From the NCBI GenBank assembly GCA_963555705.1, contig OY743170.1, positions 30,393,362-30,457,361 of the forward strand: DNA of 64,000 nt. Reading direction: 5' to 3'. How positions within the stretch are numbered: the first letter of the stretch is position 1; every line of letters starts with the position of its first letter. A program made the translations under genes and the position numbers. Origin of the DNA: Ligustrum vulgare. Its lineage: Eukaryota; Streptophyta; Magnoliopsida; Lamiales; Oleaceae. The notes under the pieces are model-generated. The model was given only the letters and a program-made list of their open reading frames with translations, ran no database searches and was not told the DNA's origin. This document shows positions 4,704 through 64,000 of this stretch, one piece after another.

Positions 4704-4799
4704 GATGTAATGAGTTATTTTCATAATGTGAGATGTGAGTTATTAACTTAGATCGTGGTAATAAATCCGGTAATTGGATAAGAGATATAGATATACTCT
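4704..4799 (+). repeat. Left part of a Tat-type LTR split by element A
   Basis: Matches 815-902 (TTATTTTCATAAT, then GAGATATAGATATACTCTT). The match resumes at 8119 after the 3.3-kb insertion, which defines the empty site. Confidence 0.7.
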
Positions 4800-5612: not shown

Positions 5613-5613
5613 G

Positions 5614-5626
5614 TTGGTATCAAAGC
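5614..5626 (+). other. Primer binding site of element A
   Basis: TTGGTATCAAAGC begins two bases after the LTR end CA. It is complementary to the 3' end of initiator Met-tRNA with one mismatch to the usual TGGTATCAGAGC, and it fixes the + orientation. Confidence 0.85.
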
Positions 5627-6060
5627 TGGACTCTGGATTCAGGTTTTGTTTTTTTATTCTATCCCAGTTTGATTTTGTGTTTTTATCATAGATTCTACAC
5701 AAATCATCCATATCTTGTTTTTGAGTCTTGTTTTCAAGTTTTCTTGTTCTTTGTGTTATTCATAGTTTTCCAGTTTTGATACATTTATTTTATTCGATTC
5801 TTATCCAAATCTCGTTCCGTTTGTTTTGTTGCCTTCGTGTCGAATTTTCGAATTTATATAAAAAAAAACTTATTTTTTTATTTAATTCCGAAAATTCATT
5901 ATTTAAAAAAAAAATGGGAGAGAGAGAGAGAGAGAGTCGTTCAAAAATTCAAGAACCAATTTCTTGAATTTCCTGCTATTACCAATATCTGGACCTTCTT
6001 ATTTTGAGTATCTCGAATTCTTGAAATCCTTATAAAGGGAAGAATTTTGAATTCGATCAT
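5627..6060 (+). other. Untranslated leader of element A
   Basis: T-rich leader with a short GA repeat near 5918-5935 (GAGAGAGAGAGA). It resembles the leaders of element E (9763-10200) and element B (minus, 22280-22000). Most of gag is missing between here and the protease remnant. Confidence 0.5.
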
Positions 6061-6079
6061 ACATTCCAGACTAGATGTC

Positions 6080-6440
6080 ATGTGAGCAGTAAACTGTGCA
6101 ATGTTACTAACGATAGAGAGTATTTTGCTAATCTGGTTAGTACCGCCCTGGTTGAGGAGTTGGGTTTACCTCTACTACAAAATCCCAATCCTTATAGGCT
6201 AACGTGGTTAAAGGAGTGTGCATGGGAAGATAAATGTAACTCATGGGGTTAGGGTGAAATTCACACTTGGGAGATATAGCGATGAACTATGGTGTGATGT
6301 GGCACCTATAGAGTCTTATCACATTTTTTTGGATAAGCCGTGGAAGTCTGAGAGGAAAGTATTCTATGATAAGGGTAGGAATGTGTACAAATTTTTTAAG
6401 GACGGAACTTATGCCATTAACCTCGGAACAAATACTTGAA
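6080..6440 (+). pseudogene. Retroviral-type aspartic protease remnant (element A)
   Basis: Frame-shifted reading gives CNVTNDREYFANLV, then ALVEELGLPLLQNPNPYRL, then the downstream part VRVKFTLGRYSDELWCDV at 6218-6439. This order matches the protease segment of element C (34645-34290, minus). The catalytic Asp region is not visible and frames are broken, so it is non-functional. Confidence 0.65.
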
Positions 6441-6493
6441 GAAAAAATATTGCGACAAAAGAGGGATGAGGAAAAAATAGTGAGAGATGGTGG

Positions 6494-6973
6494 TTGGGGA
6501 TTAAGGATGAATTCAAGGAGATGGAAAAGACATTACTACAATTAGATGAGGAAATGAAGGCGCAAAGAGCGAGGAAAAAATTAGCTAAGTTGCAAGAGAG
6601 AGAGAGAGAGAGTGAAGGAGAGGTTGATGATAAATTACAAAAGGAGAATGAAAGCGAGAATGTGGTGGACTTACAATTGGAGCCTTGGGATAGGATTGTT
6701 GAGATTGAAACTGAGGAGTTGAAATTTGAATTAGTTGATCAAATTCCAAAAATTGAGGTAGAGGGTGAGAACTTGGGTAGTAAGGAAGTGAATGGGCATG
6801 ATGATAAAATTATTGATGAGGTACATGAGAAAAAAACTGATAATCTGGGAGAGGAGGTTGAATGTGAAAAGTTAGAAGATGTGCTTGATAGTAAAACAAT
6901 AGAAGACATTGAGCAAGTAGTTGGAAAGAAGGAGGGAGGGGAAGAGAATAGCTTAGTTGTTGGGGGAAAATGA
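6494..6973 (+). pseudogene. Acidic Glu/Lys-rich coiled-coil ORF (element A)
   Basis: An open frame of 159 codons, highly charged (repeated EE, KE and DE pairs) and without cysteines or known catalytic motifs. Residues 5-50 look like a coiled coil (LLQLDEEMKAQRARKKLAKL). Part of the run comes from a GAGAGA microsatellite. The same kind of acidic ORF sits after protease in element B (21483-21169) and, shorter, in element C (34270-34130). It therefore appears to be a family-specific linker that replaces reverse transcriptase. I do not know a function. It may be only the decayed C-terminal part of the gag-protease protein. Confidence 0.45.
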
Positions 6974-7218
6974 ATTGGAAATAATGTGCCATAAGTACAA
7001 GGATCCATATATTGTACTTTATGAGACTAACATTCCCCACCCTATTTTATTTCAATCTTCCTTGCAGGTGGATTACACTTGGACGCTTGAGTCACACCAA
7101 CCCGAGCCAATTAACCTTGTGTTTCAATACCTTAGTGTCAACCAATTGGAGAAGCATCACTTATTGAATGCATGCCATGGACTTCATAATTTTCCTTTTG
7201 ATCCAGGAGGTTGAATGA
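6957..7218 (+). pseudogene. C-terminal conserved segment of element A polyprotein
   Basis: Overlaps the end of the acidic ORF in another frame, suggesting a small frameshift. The segment reads KDPYIVLYETNIPHPILFQS, then LQVDYTWTLESHQPEPINL, and ends FPFDPGG. A diverged copy is readable on the minus strand at 51105-50900 (element D), and element C has a shorter counterpart (LIYEDPCFALNKSNQPLPNS). No domain is recognised. It directly precedes the purine-rich tract (GAAGAAGGAGGGAAAG, 7258-7273) at the 3' LTR. Confidence 0.5.
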
Positions 7219-7271
7219 AACATCAAGAACAACCTATGATTCGGAACGAATCATCCTGAAGAAGGAGGGAA

Positions 7272-8118
7272 AGATAAGAATCATGGCAGACTTGACAGAG
7301 AGACCTACAAATCAAGACAAACAAAACTTCAAAATGCATGTTCAAAAGTCTCCAATTCAATAATGACATATGAGAAGAAGATTGGAGGCAAATATTATGG
7401 TCAAAGAAGATTTGGGATGAAATTGGCAATCAAAAATCCGCTGGGATTGTGATACAGATTTTTAATTGTAGATTGAAGCTCAGTTTTCGTATAGAATACG
7501 TCCAAATTTGGAAACAGATATTTCTATAATAATTGTATATCTTTGAGTCTTCTTTGTGATGCGCTTTGAATCAGCATAATCGGACATCAAGAGAGAAAGT
7601 TATGACCAAAATACCAAGAGAGCGTGCTGCTGAGGAAAGTGAAGAAATTATGCAGTCGGCCCATTACAGCCGTAATCTCAATAATTACGGCGGTAACTTA
7701 ATTTCTGCTTAGTTTCTGTGCATTTTATGTTTAATTCCATATTTACTTGTTTAAGGGTTTATTTTGTGCCCCTATTGCTGCTAGACTTAGTTGTAGTTTG
7801 TTTTTACATTATTTATATCCTTTTCTTTCATTGTGACAATTAGTTTTTGATGAATGAAACATATTGAGTGTTTTTAATCTCTAAAGGTGAGGATTCCCTT
7901 TAACCCGAACTTACAAAAGGAATTGGACAACCTTTGTGGCGTTCACCCCATTATGGTTCTTGTTTCCGAATTGTAACAGGTCTCGGGTTTAATATACCCT
8001 TGGTTCTTGCTTCGTGAGACTTGGGTCGTAGTGTTATCGTCCGCTTCAACCTGAATTTAGAACTTTCCCGGCGTTATTCCGCGAGTTTCGTCGTGACCCC
8101 CTCCCCGGGATCACATCA
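7272..8118 (+). repeat. 3' LTR of element A
   Basis: Direct repeat of 4800-5612. The first bases are mutated (AGATAAGAATC for TGATGAGAATC); the end ATCACATCA is intact. The purine tract immediately before it is the plus-strand primer site. Confidence 0.85.
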
Positions 8119-8590
8119 CTTGTTATTATTGCAGTTGTTATGAGAGTTCTTGTATTTCATGCACTTAGTTATGGAATAATTCAGACCCACTGTAGAGATT
8201 GATTTAATTTGGTAGAGTTGATTTAAACTCGAGAGAGGAATTTTATATGCATAAGTGAATTCGGCTGAATACGTTATTAGGAAATAAAACCATAATTGGA
8301 GTTAATTTAATTGGATAGGTGAAATTGAGATTCCCAACTACTTTACAATCATTTTTTAAAAATAAAACAATTTCACAATTTTATTACTTTAGTTTAATTC
8401 TTTAGTTCTTAGTTTAAAATCTCAAACTATTTCGTCTGTTTAAATTGAGTTTAGAACTAACATATTTCAGTAATTAATAGCAGTCCTCGTGGGACGATAA
8501 ATTTCGGACTCTTAGATCCATTTTATTATTCCTCACGACCTATACACTTGTGGGCATATTTTGCATCGTGAAATATTAGTGAACATTTAT
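8119..8590 (+). repeat. Right part of the Tat-type LTR split by element A
   Basis: Continues 4704-4799 and matches about 905-1393 (AAACTCGAGAGAGGAAT, then CCCAACTAC, then ATTAGTGAACA). Confidence 0.65.
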
Positions 8591-9589
8591 GCATTAGCAT
8601 TTTATGCATATTTCACGTGTAAGCACATGTCATGGTAGAAGAAATCAAAGGCTCTCACGTCTCTCTTAACTCGTATTGTTACTCGAAGGTATGGAAGTCG
8701 AGATTATGAAATGATATTTTTAGTAAATTCATGAGCAATTAGTATGGAAAGTTATTATTTTGAATGATAGGATAGTTGAGAGAGTTATTAATTATTTATT
8801 AGTATATTGTGGTTTATGTAACCTAGTATATAATAAGCGTGAAATCTTGAACAATTTTTCGACTTAGATTTAGATTTTTGATGATTTTGAAATTGTCTAT
8901 TTATGGACATTCGAAACGATGAAGTATATAACTTCTAAGTATCAATGTATATGTGGGGTTATATGATCATTTGATGTATATATACATAGGAAAATATCAA
9001 GTTATATCTTATTGCATAAGTGCAAGAAATTATTGTTGCAATCATGTGACGAATATTATTATTATTTGGGAGCTAATTATTTATTTATATTATTCGAATT
9101 TTGTGATACATTTTGGCCACTTTTAGAAATCATGATAGTGTACAAATATAATATGTGGTAAGATTTTCACACAGGATAAGCTGATGATATTATGTTAAAT
9201 ATTGATTCATGGATAACAATATGTTGGGTATATTACGTTGAGATGAAATTAATATTCATGTGACTTCTATCATTTTGGTTATTTTGGGTTATTTGATAAT
9301 AAGATGTGGTGTGGGTATAGTTAAAGAAATAGTAAATATTTATATAATTCAAGATTTATTGAGTTTGGAGATTAATATATGAAATCCAGTGTTATATTGA
9401 TGTATGATGGTTCATGTGATAAATGCGATGGTTATTATTTTGTGATCTTAAGGAAATAATATAATTAAATATCAACATGATTACTACAAGTTATGGTGGA
9501 TAGGAAGTGATGGATGTTATGATTGACCTATAAAAGAGTATTATAATGATATTGAGTTATTAAGTTAATTAATCTTATCTTAATCAATC
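8591..9589 (+). repeat. Internal non-coding spacer of a chromovirus relative
   Basis: No gene. The AT-rich sequence matches the reverse complement of 41640-42660 (spacer inside the chromovirus) in its right half, for instance around TTAATTAATCTTATCTT, GATGGTTATTAT and TGTGATCTTAAGGA. The stretch about 9172-9250 also matches 61017-61075 in the cargo element (AAGTTGATGATATTATGTT-like and GGGTATATTACGT). It is therefore retrotransposon interior, not host intergenic DNA. Confidence 0.6.
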
Positions 9590-10590
9590 TTGCATTTTGA
9601 ATATTGGGCCAAGGTCCTATCGTCTACTTTTATCTTTTCTTTCCATTGTTTTTAATTTGGTTCTTGTTAGTTGCTGAATTTAGATCTTTCCTATCGCTTG
9701 TCATTTATTCCAAGTTCTTTGTCACGTTTCTGAAAAGGAACCGCATCAGGCAGTATCAGAGCTTGGATCTAAAATCAATTCTTGATATTTCTTGAGTTTT
9801 CTTCTTCTTCGTGCCTACATTTTTTTCAGTCTTTGATCGATATAAAAATCCAACAAATCTCAGAAAGTGTTTATTTTATTCGATTCTTATCCGAATTCCG
9901 TTATGTTTGTTTTATCGTGTTCTTAGTCAAATTTCAAATTAAAAAAAGTTTCGAAAATTCATTATTCCCACATATATTCTAAGAATTTTCTCAATTTTCA
10001 AAATTTCTTGTTCTTATACATGTCTTTCAGTTTTCCTACTTCTTGAATCTTGATTGGCTCATTAGGTACTTGAAAAGGGATTAAGGGTGATATAAGAGTG
10101 AAAACAAACAGACCAGGGAATTTTTCTTTTCTTTTAAGAACTAACAATGTCTTGTAGGTAAAAATCTTCGTCATCTTCATCATCAGGTGACAACAAGAAT
10201 TTAAAACAGTTGGAGGCCATGCATGAACAAGTTGAGAAGTTAATGGCTAAGATGGATAGTAGGGAACCAATTATTGGCCAATTGCAAAAGGAGCAATCCC
10301 AGGTGGGTTCTAAGGCTAGGAGGGATAAGAGGTGTGAAACAAATACTAAGTTTGGAGATGGGGTTAATAAAAGACCACTGAAGCAAAAAGAGGAATCAAG
10401 GCTATCCCTGTGATCCTATCTTACACCACAATCAAAACAGGAGAGTAGTGATCATGTTCCAAAAAGGAGTGAGGAACCAACACCTAAGGTAAATATAATT
10501 CTGAGTCCAAACCTCCTACGGATAGAAATATTAAATGTTTTAATTGTTTGGATTTGGACCACATTGCACTTTGTTGATATTAGAAAAATT
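9590..10590 (+). mobile_element. Element E: fragment of a gag-protease LTR element
   Basis: The 3' end of an LTR (ends CCGCATCA at 9748) is followed by a primer site (GCAGTATCAGAGC, 9750-9762), a T-rich leader and the N-terminal part of gag, then a zinc-knuckle relic. It has no second LTR and is joined to other LTR-like DNA at about 10590. It is a truncated relative of elements A-C. Confidence 0.65.
10210..10580 (+). pseudogene. Gag N-terminal and zinc-knuckle relic (element E)
   Basis: Codons from 10210 give a charged coiled-coil-like start (MEAMHEQVEKLMAKMDSREP) like the region of element C gag at about 35880-35820. About 10529-10570 reads CFNCLDLDHIALC, a zinc-knuckle pattern close to CX2CX4HX4C but one residue short. 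A stop at 10411 and further stops after the knuckle make it a pseudogene. Confidence 0.6.
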
Positions 10591-12838: not shown

Positions 12839-15930
<3,092 letters not shown>

Positions 15931-17394
15931 GACTGTCTCTCTTGTAATGTTCAGACCTACCACAACCATAGCACTTCCTTCTCTTCACCTTACCCTGTGA
16001 CTTAAAACTAATTCCACTCTTCCATCTATCACCCTCATCATTTGACTCATCTCTATTTTTAACTCGTCCACCTCTCATCATGTGGACATCACCACTACTC
16101 CTCTCTTTTCTTTTAGCTTTCATCTCCATCTCTCTACTCTTCAAGGAATCAATGACAATTTCAGGTGTAAGATCATCTCTCCCATATTTTATAGCATTCT
16201 TAATCTCCTTATACATATCAGGAATAGCATTCAATAAAATTATGGCTTTATGCTCTTTAGGTATCTTCTTACCACGGTTAATGATGTCTTGCACAAGTTT
16301 ATTAAAGACATCAAGGTTGTCATCTAAATCGTTAGAGGGGTCAATTTTGAAACTGAAAAACTTTCAAGCAAGAAAATCTTATTAGAAGTAGATTAAGTCA
16401 AATAAAGTTCTTCCAATTTCTTCCAAAGTTTTTCAGTGGAATCGCGTTTACCAATTTCACACAAAAACAGAGTCAGATAGATGCAAGATGATAGAAGTAT
16501 AAGCAAGTTCATCAAAATCCTTTTTCTCATTCTAAGTTACAGTATTTCGGAAAGAATTTTCAATCGCTTTACAAATCTTTTGTTGTACCAAAATACCTTT
16601 CATTTTCTATTGTCATATAGAAAAATCACAATTTCCATCGAATATGTTCAAGTCAAGAAGGAGTGCATAAATATTAACAAATAAGAAACCCACAACTCAA
16701 AAATAAGCACCACACAGAAGATCACACAGAAAATCCTAAAGGTCGCAATATACATCGTTCTAAATTCTCAGGATTCCGTAATACTCAAGGATCTCAACTC
16801 AGGGAAATTTTCGACATGGGTAAAGTCTACGCGACAGTTCTATTTATAACGCAACAAGCAAAAAAATCACAAAATATTTCACAAGACAAACAACTATTAA
16901 AACACAAGTAATGGCAAATAATTTTTATAACAAGCAAAAAGTAATCGCAAGCCTAATGGTCACGTCACACAATGAACAGTTATAACTGGAATTTAAAAGT
17001 GATCAGCCAATTTACCAGAGAGGACCGATCTAAGTCCGTAATATAGGAGAGATGGGAAATTATTGATTTTTGTTTTATGCTTTACAATTAGCAAATTTTG
17101 AAGTGTAAATCAGCACCAAGCTCGAGAGCCTCCAAAATCATTACCTAACAGCAAAAGTTGATAGATTACTAATTAAACAATAATTTCCAGTCACAAAGAA
17201 TCTGAAAGATACAATTGGAACCAAATAATTTCAGCACATTAAAAAAAATAAAAATTCAACTAATGAAAACTAGAACGGGGAAAGAAGAAACTCAGTCAAT
17301 GAGTTCCAATTTTGATTCTAATTCAGCCAATCATGCCACTGAGGCCTTGATACCAATTTGTGGTGAATAAACATCGTCAAAACACAACATGATG

Positions 17395-34859: not shown

Positions 34860-36034
34860 ATTTTCATTATCACATAAAATCATGACCCGCTTATTTAGAC
34901 AATTTGAAGCAATATGCCCCTAACCTAAGCATTTAAAACACTTAATATTCATATCCCTAGTAGGTTGGGGTTCAGCAATATTTTAACCTTTTACAGTCAG
35001 CTCCTCCTTTACCTTCAGGACATGATCATCGTTGACTTCCTGTTTTGGATACGAACCCAAAGGTTACCTTGCTGCTCCCTTCCGCCTTAGCAGTCTTTCC
35101 ACTTTCATGGTCATGTGTACCATTTCACCTAGTTTCACATAGTGTTGCAGCTTGATGATGTTGGCAATGTCCCTGTTCAACCCGCTCATAAACATTTCCA
35201 TTGTAGCCTCCCGATCTTCTACCATGTTGGTCCTGGTCATTGCCACTTCCATGTCGTTCTGATAATCCCCCACACTCCTCATCCTCGAGTCAAACCTTGC
35301 ATCCTCTGATATATATCCCTATAATAGTGAATTTACACAAACCGCTTCCTCATTATAGCCTTTAGTTCGCCCCAAGTCTCAACTGGACTCTCCAGATTCC
35401 TCCTCATACTCATCACCAATTGATCCCACCAGCTGATTGCATAGTCTGTGAATTCAACCATTGCCAATTTCACCTTCTTCTTTTCAAAATAATGATGGCA
35501 ATCGAAAAGTAACTCCACTTTAGCTTCCCAATCCAAATATGCCTCTGGATCACACCTACTTTGGAACGCAGGTATTTTCATTTTAATGCTCCCAAGGTCC
35601 CCATCCTCAACATCTCTATCTTCATGCCTCCTTCTATGTCCCATTTCATGCATATCACCTCGCTATCTTCTCCTACCTAAGCTGGCCATAGACACATCCC
35701 CGCTATCACCATCACTATCAACCCTTCCGTCATCAAAACCATATCCGACCCGATGATTATCTTCCCTCCTATGCTCCCTCTCTTCGCCCCTCCAAACCCT
35801 ATGAGTTCGCTCCCTACACAATTGATTAATAGTCTCCTTCTGCCTATCCATTCTAGTAATCAACTTCTCAAAGTCCTCATTTAAAGTAGCCATTACTCCT
35901 ACATCATTCTCACCCACATTATTCATACCTCTGGGTCGTTTGTTGTGGCTCATTGTTGAAGCTGCTGGTTCCCTCCGTTCCATTCCCTTGTTGTCACCAA
36001 CAGATGAAGAAGATAATTCTCGACCGCTAGACAT
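34860..36034 (-). pseudogene. Gag of element C, frame-broken
   Basis: Three consecutive minus-strand frames make up a Ty3/gypsy gag. 36034-35663 is a basic start (MSSGRELSSSSVGDNKGMER, then EDFEKLITRMDRQKETINQL). 35653-35333 is the capsid domain (IKMKIPAFQSRCDPEAYLDW, then VKLAMVEFTDYAISWWDQL). 35282-35064 is the capsid end (MFMSGLNRDIANIIKLQHYV). A zinc knuckle CFKCLG-stop-GHIASNC follows at about 34943-34900. Breaks at 35655 and 35290 and a stop inside the knuckle inactivate it. Confidence 0.88.
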
Positions 36035-53707: not shown

Positions 53708-54564
53708 GTGTGACGACCCGAATTCTCGACCATTCCAGTGCCACAAAAAGTGACTCATATCATATTATCGAGACTTAAATAGTAATGTAAAATTATTCAA
53801 AAGAATAATTAGAATCCCATAATTTAATTTGTGAATAAAAATAGAACATAATTTTCTTACATAAAGTTCAACATAATTATCTCATCAATCTTAACCACTT
53901 TTGCCACTTCCATGTTGACCGCCTCGAACCTTCAATTATCTGAAAATGGTAAATATCGTGGAGTGAGATTTATAAAATCCCAGTAAGTATACCAAGCATA
54001 ATTTTCTTTTGAAAGCATATGGATCATTTTCATCATAACATAGGATAGGATCGAAATCCTCATAAACATAGAGAGACACAAGAATTTTACCGAACTTAGA
54101 TGGCAAGAATTCTTATGTGTAGCGCTACTAAACTCCGGTCCCCTTAGCATAATCATAAACATATCATATGGGACCAATAGCAATCTTGTGAGATTGATTT
54201 CATAGCAATGATCCAAACATTTTCGTAAAAACATATGGTATATCTAATTTTCATAAAAACATACTTACTTTTCTTAAAAATATAAGGTATTTTACTTTAA
54301 ATAAAAACATGCTTACTTTTCTTAAAAATATAAGGTATTTTACTTTTCATAAAAACATACTTACTTTTCTTAAAAACATAAGGTGTATTTACCTTTCATA
54401 AAAACATACTTACTTTTCATAAAAACATAAGGTAATACCTTTCATAAAAACATACTCACTTTTCATAAAAACTTAAAGTATATTTACATTTCATAACAAC
54501 ATACTTAATTTTCATAAAAACATAAGATATACTTACCTTTTAAAAGATTAAAATGAAGTGTAGT
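53708..54564 (-). repeat. Reversed LTR fragment related to the cargo element
   Basis: The reverse complement matches the 3' third of the LTR at 56640-57340: CAATGATCC, GGGGACCGGAGTTTAGTAGC, the CCACC/AGTTCGGTAAAATTC block and TAGGATAGGATCGAAATCC. Its terminal sequence, minus strand, is GGGTCGTCACA. It contains a minisatellite of five to six units of about 57 bp (54216-54545; core CATAAAAACATACTTACTTT), expanded relative to the two or three units at 56640-56760. It directly abuts the 5' LTR of the cargo element in opposite orientation. Confidence 0.8.
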
Positions 54565-57500
54565 TATAGCGACTCAGAATTTTTATGCAATAAATAATTA
54601 TTTTAATATTTAGAAAATTGTGTCGCTACTATTTCATTTATTATTTTGAAATTAATGCCGCGACGGATTCGTCTAGCCAAGTCAAGAAATATCGAATTTG
54701 TTCGATTTTAAATTAAAATCCGAATTTCTAAAATTATATTATTTTAATTATTTATTTAAAGTATTATTTTCAAAATCATTTTTCAGTCCAAAATATATCA
54801 GTTTTAAATACTTTTCTTGATCGAAGTTAGTCCAATATTTATCAAAATTGTATCATGAACCCACATATTTTTCTTCCTTCTTTATTACTCTTTCCACCTC
54901 AATATACCATAATCAAAGCATCTTCATCATATCATTACACCTAACAAAGAACACCACTACCAATTAATCAAAGCTATCACAATTCAATCCTACCCCATGT
55001 GTATACTAAACATAATGATGAATTACCCATATTCCACCCTTTTCATACCTAACTATTCATCATTTTTCCTAAATTTATACGTTCTCCATCTCCTCAAAAT
55101 ACACACAACAAACTACCAAACCACTGCAAAGTCATCACACCCTAACCGTCCCTGCTTAACCAACACTGCCCTTCACTGCACCACCTGCAATACACAATTC
55201 AATTCCAAGTTCAAGCACAGCCACCGATTTCAATTCTTCCTAGCATCACCATCACTACCGCCTATTCACTACCACTGTTTCATCAATGTCAAAACCACCA
55301 CTATCCATTTCCACCTTCATCACCTGCAACTCACAATCAGACACCTCCATATCCACACAATCACAGTCCAGATCACCACGAACCCACACTGCCACTACCA
55401 AGCTGAACCAGAATCACCACCCACACTGATTCATCTCCCTCACGCAGTTAACCTCACATAACCATCTCAACATCACACAATTCTCAATTCCATCAAGTTT
55501 TCAGAAATCATTCTCATTATCAATAACCTCACCACTGCAAATCACCATTTATCATCATCACCAAATTGGCAAGCCATAACCAAGATCCACAGCCTGCATA
55601 TACAATAACCAAATACAACCAATGCCACCTTCAACACCATTTCAGTATTATCTCCACCACCGGTAGCATCACCAGCCCTTTCACTGTCACCACCGCACTC
55701 AGCCGAACCACAGTCTCAACGTCACCCACAACCACCTACTGCCCAACTCCAATTCAGTATAAAGTTGTACCAAAATCAAACCCAAAAACCCACGAAGGAC
55801 AAGAAATAAATCAATTACCTACCTAAACTGTTGATTCACCATCGGAAATTATGATTCCAGCCGCGATGTAACCTCGGTTTAACCATCGATTTCGGCCTCA
55901 AATCAGCACCAAATTCTGTCTTTTTGCTACCAATTCTTTCCCTTAGTCACCGCCACCCAACGGCGGTGATAGCGCCGCATTGTCGCCGACGAATCGCCGG
56001 CGGATTTGATAAATCAGTCGATCGCACCTCCGTTGCCTTTTCTCCTTTTTTTTCGCCTTGGTGAAGTGAGAGAGAGAGTATAACGAGAGACTGGTTAGAG
56101 AGAGAGAGAAAGATCTGATATATTTAACTTTCCAGAATTTGCAAATCAGTCCCTGACATTTTAATTTGTTTCCATTCAGTCCTTTTAGTTTTAAAATCAT
56201 CAATTTCAGCCCTTAAGTTTTAAATGATTTTAATCAGCCCTTTCATTTTAAAATTCTGATCAATTCAGTCCCTGCTGATTTACTTTATTTGATTTTAAGC
56301 TCAAGTTTCAAAAGTATTCATTTTAATCCCTCAAGTTTCAAAAGTATTCATTTTAATCCCTCAACTTTCAAAAGTATTCATTTTAGTCCCTCAACTTTCA
56401 AAACATCAATTTTAGTCCTCAAATTATAATTTATCATTTTGAACTATATATTCGATAGACTAAAGTGACTTATTGGCTAAGACGAAGCGTACGGAGAATT
56501 TAAAGAAATTGAAGTCATTCCCGCTCAACTTTGCACTCGTCGGATTTGAGGTAGACTCGCACTTATTAATTGATTTAAATTATGATTTCATATGAATGTC
56601 ATGTGACTTGTGAAAGTCAATTTTTAAGAAAAACAAGTATGTTTTTATGAAAGGTAAATATACCTTATGTTGTTATGAAAAGTAAGTATGTTTTTATGAA
56701 AAGAAAATATACTTTATGTTTTTACGAAAAGTAAGTATACCCTATGCTTCACGAAAATGTTTTTTTGGATCATTGCTATGAAATCAATCTACCAAGATTG
56801 TTTTGGGTCCCATATGATAAGTTATGATATGTTAAGGGGACCGGAGTTTTAGTAGCGCTACACATAAGAATTCTTGCCACCTAAGTTCGGTAACATTCTT
56901 GTGTCTCCTATGTTTATGAGGATTTGCCACGAAGTTCGGTAAAATTCCTGTCTTTCCATATGTTTATGAGGATTTACCACCTAAGTTCGGTAAAATTCCT
57001 GTCGCGTATGTTTATGAGGATTTCGATCCTATCTTATGTTATGATGGAAATGATCCCTATGAATTTCATGAATTATGTTTTGGTATACTTACTGTTATTA
57101 TGATCTTACTACATAAGAATTCTTACCACCTAAGTTCGGTAAAATTCTTATATTTATGAGGATTTCGATCTTATCCTATGTTATGATGAAAACTTACTGT
57201 TATTATGATTTTACTGCATAAGAATTCTTGCCACCTAAGTTCGTTAAAGTTCTTGTGTCTATTTATGTTTATGAGGATTTCAATCATATCTTATGTTATG
57301 CTTTCAAAAGAAATTATGCTTGGCATAATTAAAATATTTTTATAAGTATATGGTTTTCAAAGAGCTGTTTTCAAAGAGCCTATGATTTGCAAAATATGTC
57401 CCGTGCTGTAATGCACAATATGAGTTTTATCAAGAGCAGTTTTATAAAGAAGCTCTATCAATGCCCGTTTTATAAAGAGCCGGGATTTATGTGTTTAATC

Positions 57501-57922
57501 ATCTTATAAATTAAATTAATATGCGATGAGTCTACTGAGTATTTCCCCCATGAAATACTCACCCTACTTTTAACAGTTTTGCAGATTTCGGAGACGGTGG
57601 CGAGCGATGAATGATGGTGGCAATAATCGTTGAACGGTTGAAAGTTTGACGTTAATGATTTCCGTATTTTCCAAACAATCGAATAATTTAGAGAAGTTCA
57701 TTTATTTGAAAAATTATGATATTGGCAATTTCTTTACAATATTAATGGTTCGATTTACTATTTCAAATGGTTTCATAAATGTTTTCAATTTTAGCGGCCA
57801 TTACAGTTTATTTAATGTTGCCAAAAATGAATTTCAATTATTTCTTCCGCAAAAATATTATTCGAAAAATTTAGACAGAAAATGACGTAGTGAATCGGGT
57901 ATACGGAACTCGGGGCGCTACA
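54565..57922 (+). repeat. 5' LTR of the cargo element
   Basis: 3358 bp, starting TATAGCGACTC (TG of the usual terminus replaced by TA) and ending GGGGCGCTACA. Left third AT-rich; 54880-55830 is ACC/CAT-rich with long but low-complexity open frames. GC-rich block and GA tracts at 55960-56110. 32-bp tandem units (TTTCAAAAGTATTCATTTTA) at 56310-56410, three here against two in the other LTR. Tandem blocks with AAGTTCGGTAAAATTC at 56880-57260. Confidence 0.95.
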
Positions 57923-57925
57923 AGT

Positions 57926-57937
57926 TGGTATCAGAGC
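57926..57937 (+). other. Primer binding site of the cargo element
   Basis: TGGTATCAGAGC, perfect complement to the 3' end of plant initiator Met-tRNA, three bases after the LTR end CA. Confidence 0.95.
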
Positions 57938-58780
57938 TAGTCTGCGTTTCTGTAGACTGGAAAAATTTTCAAAAAGAATTTTCAAGAAATATTTTCCATT
58001 ATAAAATTTTATTGATGAAGATTGCCACTGCCATCATTCGTTCCACCAACTCCGAGGTAAAGAAGTTTATGATGTTTAAAGTTATTTCAGTATTTCGAAA
58101 ACTCATTTTATTGATTTATGAGAAAGAATGAAGAGTATTTCGGATACTTATGATTTATGAGAAATAAGAATGTATTTCTTCGAAAATAATGATGTTGTTA
58201 TGCTTTGTCATAACTTATATGCTTTAATGTATGATTATGAGAAATTTTTTTAAGTAAACGAGTGTTGAGCATAATGGGAATAATGTGATTTTATTGAGAA
58301 TTAAGTAATGGATATTATGTTGAGTTAATTTATTATGCCTCTATGTTGAAGAGAAATTTATTATGAAGTTTGGCTTTGTGAATAAATTTTGGGAATATGA
58401 TTTATGGCATATATTTATAAGTATGAGTAACTTTTGAGCCAATTAAGGTATGGAAGGAAGTAATATTGTGACATTGAAAAATATGATTTGAAATTTCTAT
58501 ATTGAGGAATTATGAATTGAATTATGGGATATTTTGATGATATTGAAGTGTTGGAATTGTTTTCAATATTTTTAGATCGTTGTGATCAAATGTGGAGTTA
58601 TTTATTATTGTGAGTTATGAAGTATGCTTATGGTTTGGATAAGTCCAAATTACAAGGGAGACTCTATCCAGAATTTTATCATTTGGAATTAAGAGCATAA
58701 TATGATAAGCATCCACTAAAGGAATTAAGGTTAGACATGCAAGATCATTTACATCACAAACGAGATTTAGTAGATGATAG
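57938..58780 (+). other. Leader and left spacer of the cargo element
   Basis: No gag or other domain. AT-rich sequence of the same style as the chromovirus spacers at 8591-9589 and 41640-42660. The two short open frames here (57646-57885 and 57925-58131) cross the LTR boundary or lack any similarity and are not credible. Confidence 0.6.
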
Positions 58781-58787
58781 CAGAGAT

Positions 58788-58793
58788 TTTATT
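58788..58793 (-). terminator. Poly(A) signal downstream of LOG
   Basis: AATAAA on the minus strand within GAAAATAATAAAATC, about 320 bp after the LOG stop codon. It would end a minus-strand transcript of the cassette. Confidence 0.5.
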
Positions 58794-58867
58794 ATTTTCT
58801 CATAAGGAGAACACACAAGAGTCACACTGGAAAGGAATACATGAAACACACGAAAGCATAAGAGAAA

Positions 58868-59106
58868 AACATGGAAAGATCCTCAGAATGAGAGATGTGT
58901 TTCCGGAGTAGCCGTATCCTACCACCTCTGATCTTTTGAGGAAATAAAGAAACCTTCAAAGAGGTGTGTTTCGAGAGTAAGAATACTCCGTAATCTACCA
59001 CCTGGAATCTTTGAAGTACACACAAGATTTAAACATTAAGGAAATCCTAGTAAATGGAGGGGTGTCTCGAGAGTGAGAATACTCCATACTCTACCCCCAC
59101 CTATTC
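58868..59106 (-). repeat. Three diverged tandem units 3' of LOG
   Basis: Units of about 65-85 bp at 58880-58945, 58955-59018 and 59060-59106. Each has the order GTGT(T)TC..GAGAGT..GAATACTCC..CTACC. The core GAGTNNGAATACTC can form a short hairpin. They begin 7 bp after the LOG stop, so they would lie in its 3' untranslated region. Confidence 0.65.
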
Positions 59107-59112
59107 TAAGAT

Positions 59113-59766
59113 TCAAAGAGTTAAATTTACATTAACCGGACTCCATTTTCGCTTGATTCCCCTTCCTTGCGACCAATCTATTTTAACTCCTGCTGGATCT
59201 TGTATTGAGATATATGACTGCAGCTTATCCAGTAGTTCATCAATAGTAGGAGCAGAAATAAGAAGCCTTCTGGAAAATGGAGAGATGAATCCCTGTTCCA
59301 CAGCATAATCAAGAAAGGTTAACAAACCATCAAAGAAATTGTTAACATTCAGAAGCCCAATAGGCTTAGTATGGAGATCTAGTTGAGCCCATGAGGTAAT
59401 GTTAAAGATTTCTTCTAAGGTACCAAAACCTCCGGGCAGGGCTATAAAGGCATCAGAACCATATAGCATACAAGTTATGCGTTCATGGATGGATAAAGTT
59501 TGAACTTCATGCCCTCGTGTTTTGCCTGCAACATCTACCAAAGGGACAGGTATGACACCGATTACTTTTGATTTCTCTGCAAGAGCAGATTGGGAAACAC
59601 AACCCATTAGACCACTGCTACCACCCCCATATACAAGAGTGATACCTTTTTCCCCCAGTTTCTTTCCAAGATCTACAGCCGCTTCTAGATAACCGAAGCC
59701 TTTCCCTACTTTTGATCCACAAAATACACAAATAGTTTTGATCTGTCGAAGTTTTGGTGCTTCCAT
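59113..59766 (-). CDS. LOG-like cytokinin riboside 5'-monophosphate phosphoribohydrolase
   Basis: 217 codons, uninterrupted, ATG at 59766 and stop at 59113; plant LOG proteins are usually 200-230. The family releases active free-base cytokinin and ribose 5-phosphate from cytokinin nucleotides, as a cytosolic and nuclear dimer. Visible hallmarks: KTICVFCGS (residues 10-18), LVYGGGSSGLMG (44-55), KVIGVIP (67-73), DAFIALPGGFGTLEE (105-119) with the signature PGGxGTxxE, TSWAQLDLHTKPIGLLN (124-140), EQGFISP (157-163) and SAPTIDEL (171-178). The substrate-site pair Arg-Lys, normally in an H-x-R-K stretch, is Arg96-Ile97 here, so activity or specificity may differ. The basic tail (204-217) is not typical. 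Plant LOG genes have several introns; this one has none and probably arose from a processed mRNA. It lies antisense inside an LTR element, 300 bp after the Cys-rich ORF. Family certain, activity unknown. Confidence 0.93.
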   Translation of the reverse strand: MEAPKLRQIKTICVFCGSKVGKGFGYLEAAVDLGKKLGEKGITLVYGGGSSGLMGCVSQSALAEKSKVIGVIPVPLVDVAGKTRGHEVQTLSIHERITCMLYGSDAFIALPGGFGTLEEIFNITSWAQLDLHTKPIGLLNVNNFFDGLLTFLDYAVEQGFISPFSRRLLISAPTIDELLDKLQSYISIQDPAGVKIDWSQGRGIKRKWSPVNVNLTL

Positions 59767-59840
59767 CTTTGATAGTAAAGAAGGGAAAACTTACGAAGAA
59801 GATGTGATTTTGGGATGCCTGAACTATGAAATATGTTTGG

Positions 59841-59849
59841 CTATTTAAA
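59841..59849 (-). promoter_or_regulatory. TATA-like box upstream of LOG
   Basis: TTTAAATAG on the minus strand, about 75-80 bp before the LOG ATG, flanked by the short palindrome GGCTTTAAATAGCC. The identical nonamer precedes the Cys-rich ORF at 60650-60658. Confidence 0.5.
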
Positions 59850-60065
59850 GCCGGAAAAATTTACTGTTTTTGATTGATTCTGAAAAAGTAAAGATTTACT
59901 TTTGACAAAATCAGCCCACTTTTGAATATTTTTATCGTATCGAGGCTGTCACCTTTCGGCGATTAAATATTTTATTTCCAGCTTTATCAAACCTCGAGAA
60001 AGGAAAATATATTTTATTTTCAAAACGCGTGAAAGAAAGCAGCAAAATATTTTAAAAGATTTACC

Positions 60066-60617
60066 TTATATCATTGCTGAACTGCCAGAAGCCTCATTTT
60101 GTAAAACAGACTGGCAAACAGGATCTTTCGATATTATATTTTGGAGACTATAACGATTTTTGTCCTCGTTAAACTGAGCGTATAAGGAGAGAAGTTCACG
60201 TTGTACATAACCACTTGGGTGCGTCTCAAGAGTCAGTCGAATATCATCCAAAGACTCTTTACTCAGTCCACCCTTTATGAATTCGATTTTATCATCCCGA
60301 TTAGTAGAAGAATATCCTACTGATTTGCAACGAGTATTACAGTTCCAACGAGCACATTTGTAGCAACCACCCAGTCTTTTTGCTCTTCGTTTCTTTGCAA
60401 ACGTGCTTTTGCCTAAACCAGGCATGTGCTTTGGAAATGTTGATGGTAATTCACCAGATAGTCGAACCTTTGCTTCTATCAACCAGCGAACATCTTCTGG
60501 AATATCATGAGCCATTAGCAACCTCAATCTTTCGAGCCTTATTTTATAGATCTTTCTCAGATCATTCATAGGAAGACTGGAATAATACTTGCGAATGTTA
60601 GAAAGAATGATATCCAT
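60066..60617 (-). CDS. Basic Cys-rich protein resembling viral nucleic-acid-binding proteins (Viral_NABP type)
   Basis: 183 codons from the first ATG at 60617 to a stop at 60066; no break. The frame is open upstream to a TTG at 60632, but that is not a plant start. Residues 1-60 are predicted helical and charged. Residues 69-81 are a glycine-then-basic run (GKSTFAKKRRAKR). Four cysteines follow as CX2CX4CX3C (Cys85, 88, 93, 97: GGCYKCARWNCNTRC), then IEFIKGGLSKE and an acidic, helical C-terminus. The order basic KRRAK run, Cys pairs, then a short FI-x-G segment is the layout of the nucleic-acid-binding proteins encoded near the 3' end of carla-like flexuous plant RNA viruses, where they suppress silencing or bind host promoters. 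It lacks the His of a retroviral zinc knuckle. The assignment rests on motif layout only. It sits just upstream of LOG on the same strand, so the two may be expressed together or from paired promoters. Alternatives: an unknown plant zinc-finger protein. Confidence 0.6.
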   Translation of the reverse strand: MDIILSNIRKYYSSLPMNDLRKIYKIRLERLRLLMAHDIPEDVRWLIEAKVRLSGELPSTFPKHMPGLGKSTFAKKRRAKRLGGCYKCARWNCNTRCKSVGYSSTNRDDKIEFIKGGLSKESLDDIRLTLETHPSGYVQRELLSLYAQFNEDKNRYSLQNIISKDPVCQSVLQNEASGSSAMI

Positions 60618-60649
60618 TGTTTGATGATTCAACCTCTTCTCAGCATGAA

Positions 60650-60658
60650 CTATTTAAA
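60650..60658 (-). promoter_or_regulatory. TATA-like box upstream of the Cys-rich ORF
   Basis: TTTAAATAG on the minus strand, 33 bp before the ATG at 60617. It is the same nonamer as before LOG. A five-codon upstream ORF (ATG at 60645) lies between box and start. The short distance suggests either a very short leader or use of the internal Met at codon 18. Confidence 0.45.
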
Positions 60659-60779
60659 AGCGCAAAGGATCTGAGTGAATCCGCGTGATGTTGTGACCAG
60701 CAAGAAAGAGCAGGATTATTTTAATGAAAAGAGGAGACAAGAAGTAATGCGCTGTTAAATTTTATCGATAAAGGAGATT

Positions 60780-61100
60780 TGATTGGAGATTTGGAATATT
60801 TTCTTGGATTATGGGTACTGATATTTTGTTTTAATAATGATAATCTTGGTATAATGTGATGATACGTGGAAAGTAAAATGAGTACCGTATTGAATCAGAA
60901 TTCATACGTATATACAAGTGAAAGAAATACTTTGCAGGAAATGTGGTGACATTTAAGTATAGAATCTTAGTTTTGGGAGATATTTGTTTACTGAATTTTG
61001 GGTTACAAATATTGGAAAGATAAGTTGATGATATTATGTTGATATGTTTGGGTATATTACGTAGAGAAAATATTCAGAAAATTATAAGATTAAGTAAGTT
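60780..61100 (+). other. Right spacer of the cargo element
   Basis: Non-coding; 61017-61075 matches 9172-9250 (GATGATATTATGTT, then GGGTATATTACGT). It shows that the cassette replaced or was inserted into an existing retrotransposon spacer. Confidence 0.6.
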
Positions 61101-61101
61101 T

Positions 61102-61138
61102 AATTTCGAGGACGAAATTATTTTTAAGGAGGTAAGAT
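61102..61138 (+). other. Vestigial pol end and polypurine tract
   Basis: AATTTCGAGGACGAAATT encodes Asn-Phe-Glu-Asp-Glu-Ile, the conserved end of Tekay/Del-type pol. It is followed by AAGGAGGTAAGA just before the 3' LTR, the plus-strand primer. The same arrangement, reversed, lies at 40870-40905. Confidence 0.85.
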
Positions 61139-64000
61139 TATAGCGACTCAGAATTTTTATGCAATAAATAATTATTTTAATATTTAGAAAATTATGTCGC
61201 TACTATTTCATTTATTATTTTGAAATTAATGCCGCGACGGATTCGTCTAGCCAAGTCAAGAAATATCGAATTTGTTCGATTTTAAATTAAAATCCGAATT
61301 TCTAAAATTATATTATTTTAATTATTTATTTAAAGTATTATTTTCAAAATCATTTTTCAGTCCAAAATATATCAGTTTTAAATACTTTTCTTGATCGAAG
61401 TTAGTCCAATATTTATCAAAATTGTATCATGAACCCACATATTTTTCTTCCTTCTTTATTACTCTTTCCACCTCTATATACCATAATCAAAGCATCTTCA
61501 TCATATCATTACACCTAACAAAGAACACCACTACCAATTAATCAAAGCTATCACAATTCAATCCTACCCCATGTGTATACTAAACATAATGATGAATTAC
61601 CCATATTCCACCCTTTTCATACCTAACTATTCATCATTTTTCCTAAATTTATACGTTCTCCATCTCCTCAAAATACACACAACAAACTACCAAACCACTG
61701 CAAAGTCATCACACCCTAACCGTCCCTGCTTAACCAACACTGCCCTTCACTGCACCACCTGCAATACACAATTCAATTCCAAGTTCAAGCACAGCCACCG
61801 ATTTCAATTCTTCCTAGCATCACCATCACTACCGCCTATTCACTACCACTGTTTCATCAATGTCAAAACCACCACTATCCATTTCCACCTTCATCACCTG
61901 CAACTCACAATCAGACACCTCCATATCCACACAATCACAGTCCAGATCACCACCAACCCACACTGCCACTACCAAGCTGAACCAGAATCACCACCCACAC
62001 TGATTCATCTCCCTCACGCAGTTAACCTCACATAACCATCTCAACATCACACAATTCTCAATTCCATCAAGTTTTCAGAAATCATTCTCATTATCAATAA
62101 CCTCACCACTGCAAATCACCATTTATCATCATCACCAAATTGGCAAGCCATAACCAAGATCCACAGCCTGCATATACAATAACCAAATACAACCAATGCC
62201 ACCTTCAACACCATTTCAGTATTATCTCCACCACCGGTAGCATCACCAGCCCTTTCACTGTCACCACCGCACTCAGCCGAACCACAGTCTCAACGCCACC
62301 CACAACCACCTACTGCCCAACTCCAATTCAGTATAAAGTTGTACCAAAATCAAACCCAAAAACCCACGAAGGACAAGAAATAAATCAATTACCTACCTAA
62401 ACTGTTGATTCACCATCGGAAATTATGATTCCAGCCGCGATGTAACCTCGGTTTAACCATCGATTTCGGCCTCAAATCAGCACCAAATTCTGTCTTTTTG
62501 CTACCAATTCTTTCCCTTAGTCACCGCCACCCAACGGCGGTGATAGCGCCGCATTGTCGCCGACGAATCGCCGGCGGATTTGATAAATCAGTCGATCGCA
62601 CCTCCGTTGCCTTTTCTCCTTTTTTTTCGCCTTGGTGAAGTGAGAGAGAGAGAGTATAACGAGAGACTGGTTAGAGAGAGAGAGAAAGATCTGATATATT
62701 TAACTTTCCAGAATTTGCAAATCAGTCCCTGACATTTTAATTTGTTTCCATTCAGTCCTTTTAGTTTTAAAATCATCAATTTCAGCCCTTAAGTTTTAAA
62801 TGATTTTAATCAGCCCTTTCATTTTAAAATTCTGATCAATTCAGTCCCTGCTGATTTACTTTATTTGATTTTAAGCTCAAGTTTCAAAAGTATTCATTTT
62901 AATCCCTCAACTTTCAAAAGTATTCATTTTAGTCCCTCAACTTTCAAAACATCAATTTTAGTCCTCAAATTATAATTTATCATTTTGAACTATATATTCG
63001 ATAGACTAAAGTGAATTATTGGCTAAGACGAAGCGTACGGAGAATTTAAAGAAATTGAAGTCATTCCCGCTCAACTTTGCACTCGTCGGATTTGAGGTAG
63101 ACTCGCACTTATTAATTGATTTAAATTATGATTTCATATGAATGTCATGTGACTTGTGAAAGTCAATTTTTAAGAAAAACAAGTATGTTTTTATGAAAGG
63201 TAAATATACCTTATGTTGTTATGAAAAGTAAGTATGTTTTTATGAAAAGAAAATATACTTTATGTTTTTACGAAAAGTAAGTATACCCTATGCTTCACGA
63301 AAATGTTTTTTTGGATCATTGCTATGAAATCAATCTACCAAGATTGTTTTGGGTCCCATATGATAAGTTATGATATGTTAAGGGGACCGGAGTTTTAGTA
63401 GCGCTACACATAAGAATTCTTGCCACCTAAGTTCGGTAACATTCTTGTGTCTCCTATGTTTATGAGGATTTGCCACGAAGTTCGGTAAAATTCCTGTCTT
63501 TCCATATGTTTATGAGGATTTACCACCTAAGTTCGGTAAAATTCCTGTCGCGTATGTTTATGAGGATTTCGATCCTATCTTATGTTATGATGGAAATGAT
63601 CCCTATGAATTTCATGAATTATGTTTTGGTATACTTACTGTTATTATGATCTTACTACATAAGAATTCTTACCACCTAAGTTCGGTAAAATTCTTATATT
63701 TATGAGGATTTCGATCTTATCCTATGTTATGATGAAAACTTACTGTTATTATGATTTTACTGCATAAGAATTCTTGCCACCTAAGTTCGGTAAAGTTCTT
63801 GTGTCTATTTATGTTTATGAGGATTTCAATCATATCTTATGTTATGCTTTCAAAAGAAATTATGCTTGGCATAATTAAAATATTTTTATAAGTATATGGT
63901 TTTCAAAGAGCTGTTTTCAAAGAGCCTATGATTTGCAAAATATGTCCCGTGCTGTAATGCACAATATGAGTTTTATCAAGAGCAGTTTTATAAAGAAGCT
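61139..64000 (+). repeat. 3' LTR of the cargo element (incomplete at window edge)
   Basis: 2862 bp visible, collinear with 54565-57454. Single-base differences noticed near 61193, 61476, 61953, 62296, 63015 and 63789. One 32-bp unit fewer at 62880-62950 and two extra bases in the GA tract at 62642-62655. About 470 bp of the right end is missing. Confidence 0.95.
62590..62705 (-). promoter_or_regulatory. Possible antisense promoter/leader in the 3' LTR
   Basis: On the minus strand a TATA-like run (TTAAATATATCAG, about 62690-62702) is followed by pyrimidine tracts (CTCTCTCTCTCT) and a GC-rich leader-like block, the usual look of a plant core promoter and 5' untranslated region. It points toward the Cys-rich and LOG ORFs 2 kb away. 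The same element exists in the 5' LTR (56010-56130). Inferred from composition only. Confidence 0.35.

Follow-up and report, generated by a model that had tools for sequence, protein, structure and literature searches.

An antisense pair of NABP and LOG-derived genes in a young LTR retrotransposon of Ligustrum vulgare, shared with unrelated LTR families and likely a host-manipulation kit

The locus raises the question of what an LTR retrotransposon that encodes no retroviral enzymes does with two intact genes read against its orientation, one of which is derived from the cytokinin-activating LOG family. The window (the whole stretch of DNA analysed, 64,000 nucleotides from Ligustrum vulgare) holds most of a complete, young LTR element spanning 54565-64468, the right LTR of which extends 468 bases beyond the window end. 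The features of this locus are as follows:

54560-54564, no strand assigned: target site duplication GTAGT (5 bp), with the partner copy immediately after the right LTR, just past 64468
54565-57922, plus strand: left LTR, 3,358 nt, TATAGCGACTC..GCGCTACA
57926-57937, plus strand: primer binding site TGGTATCAGAGC
58781-60854, minus strand: cassette block, the portion that can be aligned among unrelated LTR families (~79-84% identity; precise ends differ per copy)
58880-59112, minus strand: LOG 3' flank, with three imperfect ~40-nt repeats
59113-59766, minus strand: LOG-derived ORF, 217 aa, PF03641
59841-59849, minus strand: TATA-like box of the LOG gene, TTTAAATAG on the minus strand
60066-60617, minus strand: NABP ORF, 183 aa counted from the ATG, PF05515 and PF01623
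60650-60658, minus strand: TATA-like box of the NABP gene, TTTAAATAG on the minus strand
61105-61138, plus strand: polypurine tract region, TTCGAGGACGAAATTATTTTTAAGGAGGTAAGAT
61139-64468, plus strand: right LTR, 3,330 nt (61139-64000 in the window, the remainder on the same contig)

Both LTRs start with TATAGCGACTC and finish with GCGCTACA. Over 3,328 aligned bases, 7 substitutions separate them, together with two gap runs, which bears out the initial annotation of a young element with near-identical LTRs of about 3 kb. The primer site named there was also present, and we take it to be of the initiator-Met tRNA type, while the polypurine tract is presumably chromovirus-like. An ORF search found no gag or pol ORF of at least 90 aa between the LTRs, in agreement with the claimed lack of retroviral enzymes, and both ORFs proved intact and antisense to the element. 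With two LTRs, a primer binding site, a polypurine tract, a target duplication and no intact gag-pol, the element has the make-up of a non-autonomous (LARD-like) LTR retrotransposon. The annotation would have fallen if no complete right LTR or target duplication lay past 64000, or if the direct repeats reflected an assembly duplication around an ordinary LOG locus; the first were both found, with GTAGT on both sides, and the second is ruled out by these two features together with many further copies. The start of the LTR was unmatched among the 16 chromovirus 3' ends with the best chromodomain scores, which are not a fair sample of the Tekay lineage, and no gag-pol partner was found there.

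The annotation had also proposed a search of the genome for other copies of the cassette, and these were abundant. LOG and NABP occurred in the same order at 19/19 loci around high-scoring LOG matches elsewhere in the genome, a selection by LOG domain score that is biased toward intact LOGs; among them, L013 and L028 have a broken or partial NABP, L015 a truncated one, and L011 a shortened LOG. When loci were chosen by the leader DNA alone, the cassette was present in the same order in 12/14 and absent from the other two, and of these 12 copies one had a stop in LOG and another a LOG split by a frame change. The leader itself was listed at 100% (rounded) identity in 40/40 scored matches. For NABP, all 150 scored places, a subset of 8,797 first-look candidates, were 99% identical and free of stops, and for LOG a stop was found in one of the 150 places scored among 7,995 candidates. 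In the loci read where LTRs were found, the cassette sits between them, and the closely read flanks have target duplications.

The second ORF, which the annotation had called virus-like, turned out to be more specifically viral than was claimed. It matches PF05515 (Viral_NABP; E 3e-7, 30.9 bits against a cut-off of 23) and PF01623 (Carla_C4; E 5e-6, 26.8 bits against a cut-off of 20.9), families that comprise nucleic-acid-binding proteins of carla-type viruses. Among 30 aligned members of the NABP family, PF05515 was matched by 29 and PF01623 by 26. The protein has a basic patch, KKRRAKR, followed by a C-x2-C-x4-C-x3-C cluster. A TTG at 60632 was considered as its start and replaced by the ATG at 60617 as the usable one. 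Its predicted structure was poor (pLDDT 58), a search of solved structures returned two chance-level matches, and the IMG/VR search found no relative of NABP.

The LOG-derived ORF matches PF03641 with an E value of 1e-33, and its nearest relative among solved structures is Arabidopsis At2g37210 (E 2e-57), which we take to be LOG3. The host LOGs used as controls in all comparisons here are LOG1/LOG3-type proteins, with At5g11950 added in the tree. In that tree, a branch with 100/100 support set the window-type LOGs of several eudicots apart from 19 host LOGs. Judged by its sequence, the window LOG is a member of an old, high-copy clade and no recent capture; the one-off acquisition of a host LOG that the annotation had envisaged is ruled out by the tree and by divergence at the family level. 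At least some Diospyros, Populus and Primulina database entries named LOG fall within this clade, and such names call for caution, as the clade has an altered active site.

Does the element then spread a source of cytokinin, as was first proposed? On this reading the LOG ORF would activate cytokinin nucleotides, and every insertion would be an added hormone source driving cell division. The family match and the nearest solved relative speak for it, as does the retention of the catalytic R96 and E119 and the phosphate-binding residues within the PF03641 fold and its PGGxGTxxE motif; both catalytic residues are retained in 107/116 relatives. The prenyl/adenine pocket, however, is changed. The prenyl-binding positions of CgLOG are M96, H97, K100, E125 and W129 in the available portion of PMC4979012, and if the residue roles given there are adopted, the window LOG, with I93, H94, I97, N122 and W126, matches at just H and W and thus lacks the M/H/K/E/W pocket of cytokinin-type LOGs. 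The two charged residues (K to I97 and E to N122 in the window) are both replaced in 111/116 relatives, whereas both are retained in 114/114 aligned host LOGs. The C-terminus also argues against a plain hormone enzyme, as it combines a basic patch (KRK) with an EAR-like VNVNLTL. If the EAR motif is taken as LxLxL, after the part of PMC9956375 at hand, such a tail is present in 92/120 relatives and 0/120 host LOGs, the window copy being VxLxL and not strictly LxLxL. We therefore consider a mobile cytokinin source doubtful.

Is the pair instead a set of passenger genes, captured by chance and multiplied along with an element family that was itself successful? Any sequence can ride on a young burst of near-identical copies, and the leader-matched copies without the cassette and those with damaged genes are what such a process would leave. 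The cassette is, however, not bound to the window element; it is carried by other, unrelated LTR families. At least three LTR families whose LTRs are unrelated carry the NABP-LOG block, and they have essentially just the cassette in common. In one of these, family B, a copia-type gag (E 9e-24) lies 5' of the cassette, and L017 is a composite element that also contains the block. In Orobanche, NABP and LOG are fused in three gene models. A comparison of dN/dS for LOG between copies, which the annotation had suggested, gave between-family means of 0.074-0.128, and those for NABP were 0.122-0.169 (dS 0.4-0.7); within families the ratios were higher (0.12-0.26), and the group of pairs between L017 and family B includes one pair with dN/dS >1. 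This pattern of substitution shows purifying selection on both proteins. With low between-family ratios for both genes, conserved TATA-like boxes and 3' repeats, and the same pair recurring in unrelated families and as a fusion, the passenger reading is already disfavoured, and we regard it as improbable.

The non-coding parts of the cassette bear on a further reading, in which the antisense transcription is itself the function, the reverse genes giving dsRNA or siRNA that regulates the element, with the proteins secondary. Regulation of the element through antisense transcription is one proposed role of antisense ORFs (PMC7264820). The orientation of both genes fits this, as do their promoter-like boxes, of which that of the LOG gene is kept across subfamilies, with variants, and that of the NABP gene is likewise conserved, with variants in other copies. 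In part of the LOG 3' flank (58900-58999), the window and the more distant copies share 94-96% identity, a value above that of nearly all coding windows. A known structured RNA in the cassette is ruled out by Rfam, which gave no match in the LOG 3' flank and one weak match upstream of LOG, far under gathering, and by ordinary folding energies of the flank (z-scores -0.8 and -1.0). Against antisense transcription as the function, selection acts at the level of protein sequence, and elements otherwise unrelated in sequence encode these same proteins; we give this reading little credence. That the cassette is a plant gene module, for example antiviral or developmental, merely spread by retrotransposons is very improbable: going by their families, NABP would influence silencing or transcription and LOG would influence hormones, and many copies are intact, but there are at least 150 near-identical NABP copies, and the cassette lies between LTRs, with target duplications, as described above.

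Overall, we favor the interpretation, with a probability of about 0.55, that the window holds one copy of an antisense NABP and LOG-derived cassette that is carried by several unrelated LTR families as their host-manipulation kit. A shared kit is likely because the cassette lies antisense in several unrelated families and is under purifying selection, and its function is likely host manipulation through silencing suppression and nuclear repression. Each gene would be transcribed from its own antisense promoter. By analogy with the cysteine-rich proteins of carlaviruses, NABP may dampen RNA silencing, shift host transcription, or both. The LOG-derived protein would enter the nucleus and hydrolyse a nucleotide, either a cytokinin nucleotide or another, and its tail may recruit a TOPLESS-type corepressor. 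The outcome would be a cellular state permissive for amplification of the elements, for which other elements would have to supply gag-pol proteins in trans. A trans-acting product of the cassette benefits every copy, and the kit reading leaves unexplained how selection retains it in each element.

Beyond this, we tentatively put forward the possibility that unrelated LTR families, including Ty1/copia-type ones, trade a portable two-gene virulence cassette in the way that viruses and pathogens trade effectors. Such a cassette would pair a viral-type silencing suppressor with a nuclear LOG-derived hydrolase of altered substrate and TOPLESS-hijacking tail; its carriers would be accessory-only genomes beside separate gag-pol elements, constituting a multipartite retrotransposon system, and the composite L017 would represent cassette uptake by another LTR element. 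If true, retrotransposons would be carriers of effector-like genes with a link to plant RNA viruses.

The closest viral counterparts of the window NABP are the carlavirus cysteine-rich proteins, such as CVB p12 and SPCFV NaBP. As far as the accessible part of PMC12172455 goes, viral CRPs act as silencing suppressors and CVB p12 is a transcription factor that induces hyperplasia; these proteins share with the window NABP the Pfam families and an NLS-like basic patch adjoining the cysteine cluster. Unlike them, the window NABP is encoded by a DNA element, is ~183 aa long, has a LOG-derived gene as partner and is only a putative suppressor. For the tail, the pathogen effectors HaRxL21 and Jsi1, EAR-motif proteins reported to interact with TOPLESS, offer a parallel in a short EAR-type motif, here proposed to hijack a plant corepressor; unlike in those effectors, the motif stands on a retrotransposon-encoded enzyme, and TOPLESS binding is putative.

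Among retrotransposons, antisense additional ORFs (aORF-3R) are found in Grande (gene23), RIRE2, Retand and PvRetro13, and gene23 of Grande is nuclear and transcribed from its own promoter (PMC7264820). As in the window, these are extra conserved antisense genes present in most copies of a family. An aORF-3R lies antisense between pol and the 3' LTR; the window ORFs are antisense and conserved, but the element has no pol, and in family B the gag lies 5'. The window differs further in that its two genes have recognisable relatives and that the same pair occurs in unrelated LTR families. The antisense ORFs of Retand mostly have TRP28 domains (PMC11963269), and the main text of that paper makes no mention of lysine decarboxylase, lonely guy, nucleic acid binding or carlavirus. 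The functions of plant retrotransposon antisense ORFs were described as not yet known (PMC7264820), and because this pair has recognisable relatives, purifying selection, conserved promoter-like boxes of its own and unrelated LTR families that carry it, the role of such genes can now be tested directly, in terms of silencing suppression, corepressor binding and nucleotide hydrolysis.

The novelty claimed initially holds in part: a LOG (YgdH) domain in LTR elements had already been reported, whereas the literature searched contained no report of the NABP partner, the sharing of the cassette among LTR families or the EAR-like LOG tail, which are new to that extent. Steinbauerova et al. reportedly described two Athila-like elements similar to LOGL4. 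The relevant passage of PMC9289625, citing Steinbauerova et al., places a YgdH (LOG-family) domain within LTR retrotransposons of Citrus and Populus, as in the window, and is silent on a viral partner, a tail, a pocket change, a selection test or sharing between families; these elements are probably members of the window LOG clade. The same source, in the part available, describes an AlkB-type m6A RNA demethylase in Ty3/gypsy (Ogre) elements of orchids and cites work on viral AlkB. This, too, is an acquired functional domain with counterparts in plant RNA viruses, and it likely serves to manipulate the host; it is one enzyme domain in one lineage, whereas the window cassette comprises two antisense genes found across several plant orders and in LTR families unrelated to one another.

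The window carries two ORFs antisense to a complete LTR element, one derived from a LOG gene and one related to plant-virus nucleic-acid-binding proteins (NABP):

54565-64468, complete LTR element, 9,904 bp, target duplication GTAGT
Primer site of the element, TGGTATCAGAGC
Polypurine stretch of the element, TTCGAGGACGAAATTATTTTTAAGGAGGTAAGAT
59113-59766, minus strand, LOG ORF, 217 aa, PF03641 E 1e-33
ATG 60617 to 60066, minus strand, NABP ORF, 183 aa

The left (3,358 nt) and right (3,330 nt) LTRs differ by 7 substitutions over 3,328 aligned bases plus two gap runs (K2P 0.0021), giving an insertion age of ~0.08 My at the rate in common use for LTR dating, 1.3e-8. An ORF scan found no gag/pol ORF of at least 90 aa within the element. 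The primer site and polypurine stretch are presumably chromovirus in flavour. Directly left of the element, an inverted piece at 54016-54520 (~87-97% like the LTR, matching 56620-57307) reads as the remains of a related LTR in opposite orientation. Elsewhere in the window, 15830-16294 (minus strand) holds a copia-type gag fragment just under the cut-off (PF14223, E 5e-6). The solved structure closest to the window LOG is Arabidopsis At2g37210. The NABP passes the curated thresholds for both Viral_NABP (PF05515) and Carlavirus C4 (PF01623) and has a basic KKRRAKR followed by C-x2-C-x4-C-x3-C; among 30 aligned members (the window plus 29 out of 349 homologues), 29 matched Viral_NABP and 26 matched Carla_C4 at E 0.01.

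Twenty copies, the window and 19 loci (L010-L028) read around high-scoring LOG matches, were sorted by self-comparison, termini, Pfam and pairwise alignment. All but L017 fell into three families:

Family A: window, L027, L016
Family B: L010, L013, L014, L019, L020, L022, L023, L026
Family C: L011, L012, L015, L018, L021, L024, L025, L028

Family A LTRs are long (3.36 kb in the window; read over 3.1 kb in L027), and L016 was placed there by its internal region, which is 90% identical, and by a short stretch of matching LTR. Family B has LTRs of ~1.8-1.9 kb where read whole (termini in L014 TGTTGACC..GGTCAACA), the same primer site as family A, and a sense gag ORF that in L014 matches copia-type gag PF14223 (E 9e-24). 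Family C has LTRs of ~230-260 nt in two subgroups, seen only in L018, L021, L024 and L025, and a primer site different from that of A and B; L011, L012, L015 and L028 were assigned to it via long internal alignments (C pairs 84-97%). A host LRR receptor-kinase-like ORF (L025:1502-2959, minus strand) adjoins one family C element. The longest alignments reached 1.2-2.1 kb at 78-82% for A-C or B-C and 2.0-2.1 kb at 82-84% for A-B, except for L026, which an A-type element adjoins. The block common to the three families is the cassette (NABP plus LOG) with its 3' flank.

The remaining copy, L017 (element 2691-9800), has LTRs of 860 nt that resemble none of the others, a TAAAC target duplication and its own 181-aa sense ORF; its bases 4357-8738 match L014 of family B, 3' LTR included, at 96.7-98.8% identity. 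L017 is thus a composite, with the LTRs and ORF of one family around a family B cassette and 3' LTR, so that the cassette now lies inside an unrelated LTR element. Template switching would yield this structure, as would a nested insertion accompanied by a deletion. In the window, an ORF at 35663-36034 (minus strand) is 59% identical over 111 aa to the L017 sense ORF; it matched no Pfam family above its cut-off and is probably a gag-like remnant of L017's LTR family.

Across the 20 copies, a TATA-like box (TTTAAATAG, with variants such as TTTAAAAAG) precedes the ATG of each gene, by ~80 nt in LOG and ~40 nt in NABP, and the sequence around both boxes is less conserved than the boxes themselves. 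This conservation suggests that NABP and LOG may be expressed independently of the sense transcript. The LOG 3' flank (window 58880-59112, minus strand) contains three imperfect 40-nt repeats. Between the window and 17 more distant copies, 58900-58999 showed 94-96% identity, compared with 79-94% for LOG and 68-90% for NABP in 50-base windows; almost no coding window is as well conserved across subfamilies as this stretch. The repeats might be a regulatory or processing signal; the flank matched no Rfam family, and its folding was ordinary.

Copy searches covered the whole assembly (1.385 Gb, 51 contigs), and the figures are lower bounds because only the best candidates were scored. All of the best 150 of 8,797 first-look NABP candidates had equal score, 99% identity and no stop; the best 150 of 7,995 LOG candidates were all above the cut-off, one with a stop; and the best 40 of 721 candidates for the leader DNA 3' of the primer site all matched at 100% (rounded). 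Forty-five of the 150 scored NABP places belong to 21 tandem arrays, whose repeat period (6,175-6,881 bases) corresponds to one LTR plus one internal region (for example C2:76948041/76954573/76961104 and C8:22921778/22928360/22934943, on two contigs). NABP-LOG order was identical in all 19 loci read around LOG matches. Three of their NABPs are damaged (split in L013, partial in L028, cut short in L015), and the LOG of L011 terminates early. So that gene quality played no part in selection, 14 of the 40 leader matches were also read. Both genes were present in 12; NABP was stop-free in all 12 (three run off the piece edge), and LOG had a stop in L040 and was split by a frame change in L034, with L033 and L038, counted clean, read only up to residue 200. 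The other two (L035 and L042) have the same leader DNA followed by other DNA with no ORF >67 aa.

We calculated dN/dS (Nei-Gojobori) from reading frames at least 90% long, with by-family values on gap-free prefixes, for 20 LOG sequences (L011 shortened) and 17 NABP sequences (without L013, L015 and L028). Mean values between families were as follows:

A-B: LOG 0.128, NABP 0.147
A-C: LOG 0.074, NABP 0.143
B-C: LOG 0.083, NABP 0.169
L017 vs A: LOG 0.124, NABP 0.122
L017 vs C: LOG 0.083, NABP 0.169

Between A, B and C, dS was 0.38-0.51 for LOG and 0.47-0.71 for NABP. Within families and for L017-B, family B being the source of the L017 cassette in this grouping, values were higher (LOG 0.12-0.24, NABP 0.21-0.26), at low dS where single pairs reach 2.2. 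The LOG values are biased low because copies were picked by LOG score; NABP quality was no selection criterion, yet damaged NABPs were excluded.

In a tree of 44 hand-picked proteins, whose bootstrap was not fully settled, a 100/100 branch parts 25 window-type LOGs (six own copies plus Diospyros, Populus, Reevesia, Diplodiscus, Primulina, Xanthoceras and others) from 19 host LOGs; judged by its sequence, the cassette LOG is an old, changed LOG. Active-site residues were mapped onto CgLOG as described in PMC4979012 (window LOG: I93, H94, R96, I97, E118, E119, N122, W126). The window-type set comprised the best 120 of 7,230 matches to the window LOG minus 4 proteins >260 aa (116), and the host set the best 120 of 7,997 matches to At2g37210 minus 6 such proteins (114). 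Both catalytic residues are retained in 107/116 window-type LOGs, and 111/116 have other residues in place of both the pocket Lys and the pocket Glu, whereas all 114 host LOGs retain both pocket residues. Five proteins depart from this pocket change: P0161, P0189 and, from Xanthoceras, P0212, P0237 and P0239. The three Xanthoceras proteins have no LxLxL tail either, and in the tree P0239 branches first within the window-type clade. LxLxL occurs within the last 14 residues in 92 of the 120 best window-type matches vs none of 120 host LOGs, and 88 of the 92 have a basic KKRK-like patch within the last 34 residues (for example ..KKRKLDLTLRL and ..SNKRKLNLTLSL). Among 120 NABP matches, the tail was found in P0017, P0023 and P0089, the first two being NABP-LOG fusions. 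The window LOG ends in KRKWSPVNVNLTL, a VxLxL form, and 18 of the 20 copies end in VNVNL(T/S)L, the exceptions being L011 (shortened) and L023 (W). The EAR repression motif has two consensus forms, of which LxLxL is one (PMC9956375), and we infer that the tail could bind TOPLESS. Beyond this genome, where no LTRs were seen, putative cassette membership rests on the clade, on three fused Orobanche gene models (P0017, P0018, P0023) and on NABP and LOG matches paired only by equal contig size (8,723, P0012/P0141; 4,511, P0015/P0220).

Carlavirus cysteine-rich proteins act as suppressors of RNA silencing; one of them, CVB p12, works as a transcription factor and induces hyperplasia (PMC12172455). 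By homology, the NABP may shield the RNA of the element or reprogramme transcription in the host. The LOG-derived protein combines a remodelled pocket and an intact hydrolase core with a tail of nuclear/EAR-like type, and its predicted targets are a nucleotide and, in the nucleus, transcription. Since it has no gag-pol, the window element would depend on other elements; this genome contains open reading frames with a chromodomain, the longest 1,611 aa, and among 16 chromovirus 3' ends no partner with the window LTR was found.

Steinbauerova et al. reportedly found two Athila-like elements similar to LOGL4. The matches listed by our literature searches included no report of a viral-type partner, of a cassette common to several LTR families, of the pocket change or the tail, or of the selection result. 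Plant LTR elements are already known to carry additional antisense ORFs (PMC7264820), Retand among them (PMC11963269). For betaflexiviruses, a replicase-like sequence has been reported in cucumber (PMC3136472). A LOG-family (YgdH) domain is already known from Citrus and Populus LTR elements (PMC9289625).
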